The notes under the pieces are model-generated. The model saw only the letters and a program-made list of their open reading frames with translations, was not told where the DNA came from and ran no database searches. DNA of 64,000 bases from Wohlfahrtiimonas sp. G9077. Lineage in GTDB: Bacteria > Pseudomonadota > Gammaproteobacteria > Cardiobacteriales > Wohlfahrtiimonadaceae. Shown piece after piece: positions 16,665 through 62,823 of the stretch. The stretch's first letter is position 1. Every line of letters begins with the position of its first letter. The position numbers were made by a program, and so were the translations under genes. Location: positions 62,001 to 126,000 of the forward strand of contig NZ_NEFD01000004.1 of the NCBI RefSeq assembly GCF_002252155.1. Direction: 5' to 3'.

Positions 16665-16834
16665 AAAGACCTCGGAGTTAGGGAGATGGTCAGATTATAG
16701 TCCACTTTTCAGGGCAGCGGCACAGGGGCTTGAATTATTTTTTATGAAGCTAAAAAGCGCAGTTGTCTCGATGCATGCAATTGAGATTTGATATCATCTG
16801 GCAAATGTGATAGAGTTTTTTGCGTTGAACATTT

Positions 16835-16951
16835 ATCTTTGGGGCAAGGTGAGAAGGCAACTTCAATTCCTGACCGGCGGTGACAGTCCGCGAGCGCAAG
16901 CTGACTTGGTGCAATTCCAAGACCGACAGTAAAGTCTGGATGGTAAAAGAT
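16835..16951 (+). ncRNA. FMN riboswitch (RFN element)
   Basis: The region carries the conserved FMN-aptamer blocks in order: GGGGCAAGGTGAGAAGGCAA, AATTCCTGACCGGCGGT, GTCCGCGAGC, GGTGCAATTCC, AGACCGACAGT and AAAGTCTGGATGG. The closing P1 stem is ATCTTT (16835-16840) with AAAGAT (16946-16951). It precedes ribD, the classical RFN target. The downstream hairpin over the ribD ribosome site indicates control of translation start. Confidence 0.95.
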
Positions 16952-16998
16952 GAATGGGATAGAGACGGCGTGCCATCCGGCGGGTCGTGGCTGTCTGT

Positions 16999-22866: not shown

Positions 22867-22894
22867 TTGCTAAAAGATTTATTCTGCTTATAAT
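22867..22894 (+). promoter_or_regulatory. Promoter of the M-box leader
   Basis: TTGCTA at 22867-22872 and a perfect TATAAT at 22889-22894, 16 bases apart, give a start near 22901, a few bases before the aptamer's closing stem. Confidence 0.65.
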
Positions 22895-22907
22895 GCACAC
22901 AAATTGC

Positions 22908-23080
22908 AAATCTAACCTCGTTAGGTGAGGCTCCTGTACGGAGACATGCTACTGCCCAGAAACGTCCAAAGACGCCAACGGGTTTGAACAGAAACCATCG
23001 AATTAAGGTGGTTTATAACGTAGCTAGCAGTGAAGCATGCTTCACGTCTTATGCCGTACAGTGCTAAAACTCAACGATTT
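22908..23080 (+). ncRNA. M-box (ykoK) magnesium riboswitch aptamer
   Basis: The leader carries the M-box conserved blocks in order: TTAGGTGAGGCTCC, GGAGACATGCTACTGCCCA, AACGTCCAAAGACGCCAACG, AAACCATCG with its AAGGTGGTTT partner, and GTCTTATGCCGTACAGTGCTA. The closing stem is AAATC (22908-22912) with GATTT (23076-23080). M-boxes fold on binding several Mg2+ ions and then favour termination. It precedes an intrinsic terminator and three CorA-family genes, which matches the sensed ion. Confidence 0.95.
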
Positions 23081-23149
23081 GGGGGGAGAGAGCACCGTAT
23101 GCGCCTTTGCGTGTATGGTTGCCCGCGTTACGGTTTTTTAAGATCGCAT

Positions 23150-23179
23150 GCGCCTCTATTCGTTAGAGGCGCTTTTTTT
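23150..23179 (+). terminator. Intrinsic terminator of the M-box riboswitch
   Basis: GCGCCTCTA (23150-23158) pairs with TAGAGGCGC (23164-23172) across a five-base loop, followed by seven T. It lies between the aptamer and the first corA ATG at 23216, the expected place for the Mg2+-induced OFF switch. Confidence 0.9.
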
Positions 23180-23215
23180 ATGCGAAATTTTTTGACTGTT
23201 TTTCGGGAGGCACCC

Positions 23216-24112
23216 ATGATTAAAACATTGAACCGTGCTCAACATGTCTGGATCCAACTCACAGCGCCAACGCCACAAGAGCTCGAGCGCATCAGCCATG
23301 ATTTTTTCATCCCTTTTTCCATGCTCAACTTACATCAAAATGGCGCAAAAAGCCGCATGATTGAGCGCCATGCAGAGCTTTTTGCCTTTATGCTGCAGTT
23401 ACCGATCCGCAGCCGATTTGGAGAAGTGATGCCATTTACCTTACAAAATGTTTCTGTGATTGTGATGGGGCATGTGGTGATCACCATCAGCGAGCACGAG
23501 CATCCCATTTTAACAACGCTCGAGCAATCCTTTACAGAGCTGACGGATGGCAACGCCACCCATTTATTGTTGCATTTATTTGAACACACCATTGGCCGCT
23601 ATTTATTGGCCATCGATGAGATCAATCGTACGATCGCTACTGTAGAAGCGCAGATTGAAAACGCCATCAGCAATCAGCACATTTTTGATCTGCTCAATCA
23701 CAATAAAAGCTATGGCGCATTCATTCGTGCATTGAAACACAATGGCCGCGTGTTTAAGGATTTGGCTGCCAAGCGTTTATTGCTCAGTGACTATAAAACC
23801 GATGCGATGCTGCAAGATGTGGTGCTGGCCAATTTGCAAACACAAAAAAAGGTGGAAATTTATCATGCGAACCTTCGAAACTTGATGGATGCTTACTCTG
23901 CGGCGATTGAGAATAACTTAAGTTTAGCGGTGCAGTATTTAACAATTTTTGTGACGATTGCCGCGATTCCGATGGCCATCGCGGGCATTTATGGCATGAA
24001 TACGCCGTTGCCATTTCAAGATGAACCCTATGCCCTTGTTGTGTTAGGGGCCATTGCCGCCGCGTTAGCTGGCGCTGTGATGATGTTTTTCAAAGCCCGC
24101 CGTTATTTGTAG
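23216..24112 (+). CDS. CorA-family magnesium transporter, paralogue 1
   Basis: A 298-aa CorA/MIT-family protein: a cytosolic alpha/beta domain, long helices (NLMDAYSAAIENNLSLAVQ) and two C-terminal membrane segments, the first closing with the selectivity signature YGMN at about residue 260 and followed by TPLPF. The C-terminus ends in basic residues (KARRYL). An open frame upstream to 23030 crosses the riboswitch and is not coding; the ATG at 23216 has GGGAGG 7 bases upstream. It imports Mg2+ (or Co2+/Ni2+). First of three tandem paralogues. Confidence 0.9.
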   Translation: MIKTLNRAQHVWIQLTAPTPQELERISHDFFIPFSMLNLHQNGAKSRMIERHAELFAFMLQLPIRSRFGEVMPFTLQNVSVIVMGHVVITISEHEHPILTTLEQSFTELTDGNATHLLLHLFEHTIGRYLLAIDEINRTIATVEAQIENAISNQHIFDLLNHNKSYGAFIRALKHNGRVFKDLAAKRLLLSDYKTDAMLQDVVLANLQTQKKVEIYHANLRNLMDAYSAAIENNLSLAVQYLTIFVTIAAIPMAIAGIYGMNTPLPFQDEPYALVVLGAIAAALAGAVMMFFKARRYL

Positions 24113-24120
24113 GAGAGATT

Positions 24121-25071
24121 ATGTTATCCATTTATCAAACCCATGCAGATGGGCAGTTATTGCCAAGTGAAACCTTAGCGCACAATAGCGTCATTCACTT
24201 GGTCAATCCAACAGAAGAAGAGATCAATGTGTTGGTCAATGAACTTCATTTGCCATTAGATTTTTTTCATAGCGTGCTTGATCGTCATGAGCGCCCACGC
24301 ATTGAGCGGGATGACCATGGCACTTTGATCATTTTAAATGTACCTGTAACGGCTGCGAACGCTGAGGATTTAACGGCGCCGCCTTATCATACGGTGCCCC
24401 TTGGCATCATTCATGGGCGAGATCATCTCATCATTGTGAGCCGCGAGCCATTAACCGTGGTGGATGAAGTGTTGACGAGGCAATATGGCGATTTTTATAG
24501 CCACATGAAAACGCGCATTTCATTGTTATTGTTTAAGGCAGTGTCTGAATCGTATGAAGATCATTTGGCATTGATCAATGCACAAGTGAGTCAGTTGCAA
24601 AAGAAACTCAGAGCCTCGTATAAAAATACCGAGTTGTTTGCCCTGATGAATCTCAATAAAAGTTTGGTGTTTTTCTCAACGGCGTTGAGTGCAATGACCA
24701 TTTTGTATCAGCGCCTGACCCTCGGCGATACATTGAAAATTCATGAGGATGAAAAGCAGCGTTTAGAGTCAATTTTGGTGGATTTAGAGCAATCGGCCGA
24801 GGTGATAGAAATGCGCCGCGAGAGTTTAAGTAACTTGATGGATGCATATGCCACCATCATTCACAATAACTTAAACGCTGTTTTAAAAATGCTGACGACG
24901 CTTGCGATCGTGATGATCATTCCCACCATGATCGGCAGCATTTTTTCCATGAACGTGGCATTGCCAGGGGAAGAAGATCCTGTATCTACCGTCATGATTG
25001 CCATCGGCATGGTATTGATCAGTGTGATGCTGCTCATTGTCTTTTATCGAAAAAAATATTTACGTATGTAA
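24121..25071 (+). CDS. CorA-family transporter, paralogue 2 with SMN in place of GMN
   Basis: A 316-aa CorA-family protein with the same layout as its neighbours (NLMDAYATIIHNNLNAVLKM, then two membrane segments). At the end of the first membrane helix it reads IFSMN at about residues 274-278, so the first residue of the GMN selectivity filter is Ser (TCC codon at 24946). In CorA the GMN signature is nearly invariant and changes usually impair Mg2+ transport. It starts 8 bases after paralogue 1 behind AGGAGAG. It may be a modified channel, a subunit of a mixed pentamer, or a regulatory paralogue. Confidence 0.85.
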   Translation: MLSIYQTHADGQLLPSETLAHNSVIHLVNPTEEEINVLVNELHLPLDFFHSVLDRHERPRIERDDHGTLIILNVPVTAANAEDLTAPPYHTVPLGIIHGRDHLIIVSREPLTVVDEVLTRQYGDFYSHMKTRISLLLFKAVSESYEDHLALINAQVSQLQKKLRASYKNTELFALMNLNKSLVFFSTALSAMTILYQRLTLGDTLKIHEDEKQRLESILVDLEQSAEVIEMRRESLSNLMDAYATIIHNNLNAVLKMLTTLAIVMIIPTMIGSIFSMNVALPGEEDPVSTVMIAIGMVLISVMLLIVFYRKKYLRM

Positions 25072-25080
25072 GGGGAGATC

Positions 25081-25944
25081 ATGACATTTATGAACCATTT
25101 TTCCTTGGTGGCGCCGACCATCGCAGAGCAACACGAGATGACAGAACGTTTTAATTTACCAGCATATTTTATGCATGAAGCCACAGACATCAATGCACGT
25201 CCTAAGCTTGAGCAAGAGGGCGGACATCAATTGCTCGTGATTCACCTGCCTTATGTGGATCAACAGGTGACGGACAGCTCAATGGATGTGAAATATCGCA
25301 CGCTGCCTTTTAGTATGATTCTTACGGGGGATACGTTAATCACTGTGTGCAGTGAAAAGACGGCTTTGAGCTTTGATCATCGCACTCATACCGCCAATAT
25401 TTTGGGTATTTTGCATCAAACAGCAGTGGATTACATTCAATTGACGCAGCAGATTGAGTCGGAGATCACAGCGGCGGAAGATGAATTGTCGCGCTCTTAT
25501 CGCAATCCTGAGTTGTATCGCTTGTTGTATCTCAATGAGAGTTTGCTCTGCATGGCAACGGCGCTCAAGCAGATGCGCCACATGATGCGTAAATTGGAAA
25601 AAGGGCAACTTTTATTGATGCATAAGCAAGATCAAGACATTTTTATGGATACATTGGTGGAATTAGATCAAGCGTATGCCATTACAGAGATCAGTCAGTT
25701 GAATGCGAATAACGTGATGGATGCATATGGCAACATCATTCAAAATAATGTGAGCCACGTGGTGAAATTGTTAACGGCTGTGACGATTGTGCTCTCAATT
25801 CCCACTTTAATTGCCAGCATTTATGGCATGAATGTGCCGTTGCCATTTCAAACGGCAGACAATGCTTTTTATGTATTGATTCTCGTGATGATGGTGGCAA
25901 GTTTGGGCGTTGCGGGATTATTCTGGCGTAAACATTACTTCTAA
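25081..25944 (+). CDS. CorA-family magnesium transporter, paralogue 3
   Basis: A 287-aa CorA-family protein. It keeps the canonical signature IYGMN (Gly at about residue 249) followed by VPLPF, and NVMDAYGNIIQNNVSHVVKL in the long helix. N-terminal sequence is clearly different from the other two, so the trio is not a recent duplication. It starts 9 bases after paralogue 2 behind GGGGAG, ending the presumed M-box transcript. Confidence 0.88.
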   Translation: MTFMNHFSLVAPTIAEQHEMTERFNLPAYFMHEATDINARPKLEQEGGHQLLVIHLPYVDQQVTDSSMDVKYRTLPFSMILTGDTLITVCSEKTALSFDHRTHTANILGILHQTAVDYIQLTQQIESEITAAEDELSRSYRNPELYRLLYLNESLLCMATALKQMRHMMRKLEKGQLLLMHKQDQDIFMDTLVELDQAYAITEISQLNANNVMDAYGNIIQNNVSHVVKLLTAVTIVLSIPTLIASIYGMNVPLPFQTADNAFYVLILVMMVASLGVAGLFWRKHYF

Positions 25945-26001: not shown

Positions 26002-26604
26002 ATGAAAAAATTATTATGCCTAAGCAGTTTAATGTTGGCGTTGTCTGTTGCCCATGCCCAAGAGAGCTCATTGACAGAGGATTTGTCGAAACTCACCGAT
26101 GATGTTTCTAAATCTGTGAAAAAAGGTTGGGACAGGTCAAAAGATGCCATCAGTGATTTTTCAGATGATGCAAAAGTGCAGTTAGATAAAGCAGGTGAAT
26201 CCATCAAGAGCAGTTTTGATGATTTTAAAAACAGCTATGCGGTGACAGATGCCGCCACATTACAAAAATATTTGGTGGTGGAAATCCCATCCGTTTCCCT
26301 TGAAGATGGACAATTGACGGTGACGGTCATCTTAAAAAATAACCAAGATAAACCGGTGAAATTTAAAGATGTAAAAAATAAAGTGGATGTGATTGTGTTA
26401 GATCAAGACAGCATTGCCTACTTTGCCACAGAAGCTTCATTTAAACACAATCAAAAAATCATTGTGCCGGCAAAAGCGGCTGTGAAAGTGACGTGGCAAT
26501 TTGACAATGTCACATCAACGCCGGTGATGCTGCGTTTGATGAATGCAGATTATCCTTTGCCCAAAATCAGCAGCGGTTTTTCCTTAAAAAGCTTAGGCTT
26601 ATAA
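26002..26604 (+). CDS. Secreted protein of unknown function
   Basis: I do not recognise a family. The 200-aa protein has a clear signal peptide (KKLLCLSSLMLALSVAHA, cleavage before Gln20) without a lipobox cysteine. A charged, probably helical region rich in Asp/Lys/Ser follows (residues 20-80), then a beta-rich domain (VVEIPSVSLEDGQLTVTVIL to the end) that resembles immunoglobulin-like periplasmic folds such as YcfL/DUF1425, a weak impression only. It follows the corA trio by 57 bases behind AGGAG and may have its own promoter. A terminator-like hairpin follows. Confidence 0.7.
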   Translation: MKKLLCLSSLMLALSVAHAQESSLTEDLSKLTDDVSKSVKKGWDRSKDAISDFSDDAKVQLDKAGESIKSSFDDFKNSYAVTDAATLQKYLVVEIPSVSLEDGQLTVTVILKNNQDKPVKFKDVKNKVDVIVLDQDSIAYFATEASFKHNQKIIVPAKAAVKVTWQFDNVTSTPVMLRLMNADYPLPKISSGFSLKSLGL

Positions 26605-62761: not shown

Positions 62762-62779
62762 ATGCAAACGCTAATGAGC

Positions 62780-62817
62780 AGAGGTTCTAGCGCAACCCTC
62801 TATAAAAAACTAAGGAG
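62780..62817 (+). ncRNA. PreQ1-I riboswitch
   Basis: AGAGGTTCTAGC, then GCAACCCTCT, then ATAAAAAACTAAGG matches the short class I preQ1 aptamer: AGAGG pairs with CCTCT, and the A-rich tail ends with CTAA, which makes the H-type pseudoknot with the loop. The AAGGAG ribosome site (62812-62817) overlaps the pseudoknot end, so preQ1 binding should block queC translation. Confidence 0.95.
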
Positions 62818-62823
62818 ATCATT

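Follow-up and report, generated by a model that had tools for sequence, protein, structure and literature searches.

An M-box riboswitch ahead of three consecutive, divergent corA genes in Wohlfahrtiimonas and distant bacteria, with a middle protein that lacks the filter glycine

Textbooks present bacterial CorA as a homopentameric Mg2+ channel with a GMN filter that is essentially invariant. Yeast has CorA-type pairs, Mrs2/Lpe10 and Alr1/Alr2; in the latter one member modulates the other, and both members of either pair keep GMN. That Lpe10 modulates Mrs2 is stated in the title of a reference listed in PMC9276622. The 2-TM-GxN family is accepted to include hetero-pentamers (PMC6972854), and Mrs2 is impaired when its GMN is changed to AAA (PMC11919701). 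M-boxes of the known type act as OFF-switches (PMC4072509, PMC12810186). In the open-access literature, we found no paper on corA triads, bacterial CorA heteropentamers or a Wohlfahrtiimonas M-box.

The window analyzed here is a stretch of 64,000 nucleotides from Wohlfahrtiimonas sp. G9077 (genome size 2.1 Mb), in which the following features were located:

22867-22894, + strand: probable sigma-70 promoter, TTGCTA-16-TATAAT (10/12 consensus matches; the scan alone not above shuffles)
22910-23090, + strand: M-box (Mg2+) riboswitch aptamer (RF00380, 130.4 bits, E 5e-29)
23073-23087, + strand: putative antiterminator half, the aptamer 3' strand, able to base-pair with the 5' arm and loop of the terminator (cognate versus swapped pairings, permutation p 0.0008)
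23150-23179, + strand: intrinsic terminator (stem 23150-23172, 9 pairs, then a T tract; relatives have equivalents)
23150-23163, + strand: terminator 5' arm and loop, the second putative antiterminator half (from folding)
23216-24112, + strand: CorA-A, 298 aa, GMN filter at 23993-24001 (PF01544, E 4e-40)
24121-25071, + strand: CorA-B, 316 aa, SMN instead of GMN at 24946-24954 (PF01544, E 1e-47; predicted CorA fold)
25081-25944, + strand: CorA-C, 287 aa, GMN filter at 25825-25833 (PF01544, E 1e-39)

The first-pass annotation of this DNA had proposed that one complete M-box, with its own promoter and an intrinsic terminator, controls three CorA-type genes. The aptamer is indeed complete, the RF00380 match (cut-off 44 bits) covering positions 1-169 of the 169-position model, and a genome-wide search returned it as the sole RF00380 match, with no second M-box in the host genome. 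The terminator was likewise recovered as a 9-pair stem followed by a T tract. The promoter stands in part: the motif is close to consensus and TATAAT directly 5' of the aptamer is seen again in several relatives' leaders, but the scan by itself does no better than shuffles.

Folding of the full window leader gives a formed terminator, and the leader folds better than all of 200 shuffles (z -3.6). When the leader is cut before the terminator 3' arm, 23073-23087 folds onto the terminator 5' arm and loop instead. This competing pairing is also possible in relatives' leaders, with compensating letters (AACGA/TCGTT in the window, AATGA/TCATT in Ignatzschineria), and equivalent leaders with a terminator and a competing pairing occur in other family members, Acinetobacter, Neisseriaceae, Alcaligenaceae and Bacillota. 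Across 16 leaders, of which related ones are not independent, cognate aptamer/terminator pairing has -11.6 kcal/mol versus -10.0 kcal/mol for swapped pairing (p 0.0008); per single leader, the antiterminator energy is mostly not beyond shuffles (p 0.01-0.42). In I. ureiclastica the terminator lies more than 200 nt downstream, with none within 200 nt. A further weak hairpin with a T run (23103-23140, -7.7 kcal/mol), confined to W. chitiniclastica, sits between the aptamer and the main terminator and may be a second stop or nothing.

The assignment of the window leader as an M-box OFF-switch of the known kind is well supported, its Mg2+-dependence resting on homology. At high cytoplasmic Mg2+, the aptamer would compact and keep its own 3' strand, the terminator at 23150-23179 would form and the corA genes would be off. 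At low Mg2+, the 5' arm and loop of the terminator would instead be paired with the aptamer 3' strand, and a single transcript of corA-A, corA-B and corA-C would be made. We infer the direction of this switch from known M-boxes. Elsewhere in the window are an FMN riboswitch (16831-16955, 99.9 bits) and a PreQ1 riboswitch (62775-62819, 43.3 bits).

All three genes match PF01544 over their full length (138, 163 and 137 bits for CorA-A, CorA-B and CorA-C; cut-off 27), and they are separated by 8 nt (A-B) and 9 nt (B-C), just as had been described. The absence of an internal promoter, also claimed earlier, agrees with a promoter scan, which is weak evidence, in which no + strand site scores within 23221-25944; one weak 9/12 site at 23192-23220 falls between the terminator and gene 1. 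The gene after the triad starts at 26002, 57 nt past CorA-C and behind a fresh TATAAT, so that the operon probably ends at CorA-C.

None of the three proteins reaches the cut-off of TIGR00383, the CorA Mg2+/Co2+ equivalog (90, 118 and 85 bits versus 200.75). For ZntB (NF007092), CorA-B scores 39.6 of the 292 bits needed, and no match was reported for CorA-A or CorA-C. CorA-A and CorA-C carry the GxN signature, as GMN, at the end of TM1, and CorA-B is without it. The trio would be classed as a divergent CorA type and not as classical CorA, with CorA-B homologous to CorA and, as judged from its sequence, outside the strict 2-TM-GxN signature. One further CorA in the genome (C1:533665-534615) is of the classical GMN..MPEL type and has no M-box.

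The window paralogues are 23-32% identical overall, with 20-28% in the N-terminal part versus 31-44% from MDAY onward. The motif MDAYxxxxxNN, previously pointed out as shared, is common to the trio but not special to it, for close versions (MDAFxxxxxNN) are present in single-copy Bacillota relatives. The N-terminal domains, reported to differ, are divergent but remain versions of one CorA domain, CorA-C being merely shortened in the window's species group. CorA-C of the window and of W. chitiniclastica lacks about 28 residues at the N-terminus and about 10 internal ones that W. populi and all other aligned relatives have, so that constraint on the C domain may be lower in the W. chitiniclastica lineage. 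The CorA-B proteins of the window and of Wohlfahrtiimonas chitiniclastica DSM 18708 share 97% identity, which places the host in or very near that species.

In 26 loci, M-box, CorA-A, CorA-B and CorA-C follow one another in this order to the extent that the contigs allow, with the M-box in 25 of them and the 26th cut by a contig end. This comparison of gene order in related genomes, together with the leader, upholds the claim of one M-box for three corA genes, and it rules out chance co-location. The hosts are Wohlfahrtiimonas, Ignatzschineria, Acinetobacter, Neisseriaceae, Alcaligenaceae and several Bacillota. Among 18 genomes of the window's family, 13 have the triad (in G004 the contig ends after B) and five have none of its genes; inheritance of the triad in the family is all-or-none. 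A profile scan with CorA-B, using one genome per species, gave 18 loci, including two Neisseriaceae MAGs, Alcaligenaceae 429, Paenalcaligenes, three Acinetobacter, Lysinibacillus alkalisoli and a Brevibacillus MAG, and the cassette is present in further Bacillota (G430, G447, G449 and G454). No lone A or C gene was among the strong hits of this search, which starts from CorA-B and samples lone A or C genes less well.

The distribution of the cassette is rare and patchy. M-boxes are confined to the window's family among 57 relatives, and none passes the cut-off in about 368 other Gammaproteobacteria; the triad is found only in the window's genome among 369 Gammaproteobacteria, and 400 sampled Bacilli gave only Lysinibacillus and three sister triads. 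Of the proteobacterial genomes beyond the family, five were searched whole, and each has a single M-box, 5' of the triad. Plasmid carriage of the cassette was rejected: only ordinary CorA relatives (31-35%) were found. Some Ignatzschineria have intergenic gaps of up to 199 nt and one has a weak hairpin between A and B, so tight translational coupling does not appear to be universal.

Several of the loci, or genomes related to them, have other M-boxes. In Lysinibacillus alkalisoli, tandem M-boxes (L081:3549-3719 and L081:3836-3998) lie 5' of the triad; a short mgtE-like gene and an mgtC-like gene come next, and the whole may be a five-gene Mg2+ operon. Four Bacillota have a second, divergent M-box beside the triad that leads toward an mgtC-like gene (L139:6810-6983, L140:6397-6571, L141:3740-3915 and L142:6894-7068), the two M-boxes thus pointing in opposite directions. 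In Ignatzschineria and its sister genus g3, other M-boxes (L039, L040, L043, L046, L047, L049, L050, L052, L057, L058, L060 and L063) are found 5' of two short MgtE-like paralogues (about 332-348 aa); in g3 genomes M-boxes precede mgtE, and the CorA triad is absent.

In an 81-row tree, the proteins cluster by operon position and not by species: B forms one clade (98/88), C one clade (99/91) and A a near-clade, all apart from the single-copy M-box CorAs (100/100). Proteobacterial copies are nested in Bacillota copies, with Lysinibacillus as sister (B 100/99, C 100/95, A 94/91), and Acinetobacter copies fall with betaproteobacteria, not with Wohlfahrtiimonas. The grouping by position together with the nesting indicates that the triplication is older than the spread. 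This supports the old duplication and separate roles suggested before, the position-specific A, B and C groups predating the split of the host lineages. The same pattern points to cross-phylum transfer after a single origin, most likely in Bacillota, a member of which would have been the donor to Pseudomonadota. The riboswitch would have moved with its operon into groups otherwise seemingly without an M-box. Cassette GC is close to that of the host flanks, so base composition gives no sign of recent transfer and the transfers look old.

The nearest outside group (100/100) consists of Bacillota single-copy CorAs, most with an M-box directly upstream, and the ancestral state was likely an M-box with one corA. 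With such single-copy relatives nearest, the triad could be a plain tandem duplication that raises gene dosage, as tandem duplication commonly does, without dividing labor among the copies. But divergence of the copies (23-32% identical in the window) preceded the spread of the cassette, their order is fixed, they carry position-specific residues and no copy is decaying; this explanation is already disfavored, and we regard it as very improbable.

Sister CorA triads without an M-box occur in Bacilli (L145:4504-7466, L146:4339-7367 and L147:2698-5794). Their filters are GMN at the A position, AMN, AMN or TIN at the B position and SMN at the C position, leaving two of three proteins without GMN. 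Genes for crcB-like fluoride channels lie close to these triads, and in two cases so does a fluoride riboswitch (RF01734; L145:3339-3473 and L146:92-245).

The first-pass annotation noted neither that the middle protein has lost the GMN glycine nor that the cassette has spread between phyla. The filter region of CorA-B reads GSIFSMNV where the family has GMN. SMN is found in CorA-B of 13 of 13 triad-bearing members of the window's family and of the Neisseriaceae, Alcaligenaceae, Acinetobacter, Lysinibacillus and Brevibacillus relatives; of four further Bacillota, two carry SMN and two AMN. Overall, GMN is present in every CorA-A sequence examined and in no CorA-B. The residue just before the pore-helix NN (or IN) differs by position: CorA-A has E, CorA-B has H and CorA-C has Q. 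Single-copy relatives have S there, and in the sister triads the A-position gene has Q. Beyond the filter, the motif is LPxE in B and LPxQ in nearly all A and C. For the pore-lining set M291-L294-A298-M302 of TmCorA (PMC4504495), a gapless hand alignment would give V-L-V-A in A, L-L-A-I in B and V-L-T-S in C.

CorA-B is under purifying selection as strong as that on its neighbors, with pairwise dN/dS of 0.02-0.14 for each of corA-A, corA-B and corA-C, which rules out a decaying copy. Its predicted fold (pLDDT 73.6, weakest near the filter) matches TmCorA and MjCorA (PDB 4i0u, 4ev6) over the whole length (best Foldseek E 4e-14, TM about 0.7). Another reading is a role outside conduction, in which CorA-B is a CorA-like regulator, either a homo-oligomer or a dominant brake, that sets the level of transport by A and C. 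The strong selection, the filter glycine gone in every B and the yeast precedent of Lpe10 modulating Mrs2 (by the reference title in PMC9276622) would fit such a regulator, but CorA-B keeps the filter Met and Asn, the pore helix and the loop acid, as if the pore still matters, and we consider this role quite improbable.

Cassette persistence across distant bacteria suggests that the three proteins work together. Subunits of one machine would be expected to show just such a single transcript, fixed order, common fate across phyla and division into distinct sequence classes, and all-or-none inheritance combined with the altered B filter makes mixed pentamers more likely. Since hetero-pentamers are described in the family (PMC6972854) and a GMN change impairs Mrs2 (PMC11919701), a GMN-less B would be most sensible in a ring with A and C. 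In such a ring, A, B and C would be specialised CorA subunits of one pentameric channel, A and C giving normal GMN filter strands and B (SMN/AMN) serving as a modulatory subunit that alters pore entry and gating; both co-assembly and this role of B are proposed from sequence patterns.

Co-inheritance in one operon equally fits three separate, jointly needed channels. These would be homopentamers co-induced at low Mg2+ and differing in affinity or selectivity, A and C for Mg2+ and B for another ion or regime. The staged Mg2+ affinities that the first-pass annotation suggested may likewise apply. Bacterial CorA structures known so far are homopentamers (PMC4504495, PMC3629940), with all solved relatives being CorA entries; the full CorA domain is kept by all three genes, and in a third lineage C, too, is without GMN. 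However, B is met only together with A and C, a GMN-less homopentamer is expected to conduct poorly, given that GMN disruption impairs function (PMC11919701), and the three residues at one pore-helix position (E/H/Q) seem to complement each other. We judge three separate channels to be unlikely, though still to be taken seriously.

For the mixed channel itself the chances appear about evenly balanced, and its strictest form, a hetero-pentamer of three obligate subunits, one without GMN, under single M-box control and exchanged between phyla, is put forward tentatively, as something short of an even bet. We lean slightly toward the reading as a whole, i.e., an Mg2+-uptake operon, inherited and exchanged as a unit and induced at low Mg2+, whose three subunits most likely co-assemble. 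In its support, the sequence analysis itself shows the aptamer, the terminator, the competing pairing, three intact CorA genes, the B filter change, co-inheritance and purifying selection. The triad is a direct test case for hetero-oligomeric bacterial CorA, and its conservation across phyla with a middle protein lacking the filter glycine is a natural experiment on the purpose of GMN.

Compared with the Bacillota M-box (ykoK leader, RF00380), the locus is alike in its full aptamer, intrinsic terminator, 3'-strand antiterminator and downstream Mg2+ transporter gene, but it has three consecutive corA genes instead of one and lies in Pseudomonadota, where M-boxes are rare. Bacillota single-copy M-box corA genes (L148-L151, L154, L156, L157 and L160) share the CorA type and pore helix, and most of them the riboswitch; they differ in having one gene, GMN, S (versus E/H/Q) before the pore-helix NN and a separate clade (100/100). 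The Firmicutes-type CorA2 of Staphylococcus aureus (PMC6711546) is a plausible functional model for this single-copy type. TmCorA and MjCorA are homopentamers with GMN, from which CorA-B is distant (15-20% identity). The yeast CorA-family pairs Mrs2/Lpe10 and Alr1/Alr2 are also CorA-type paralogues of which one modulates the other, a functional likeness and not homology as a system, but they are eukaryotic and encoded by unlinked genes. Finally, M-box mgtE-nramp operons (PMC4072509) resemble the locus in that a single M-box serves more than one gene for Mg2+ transport; they combine two unrelated transporter families, whereas the window has three members of one family.
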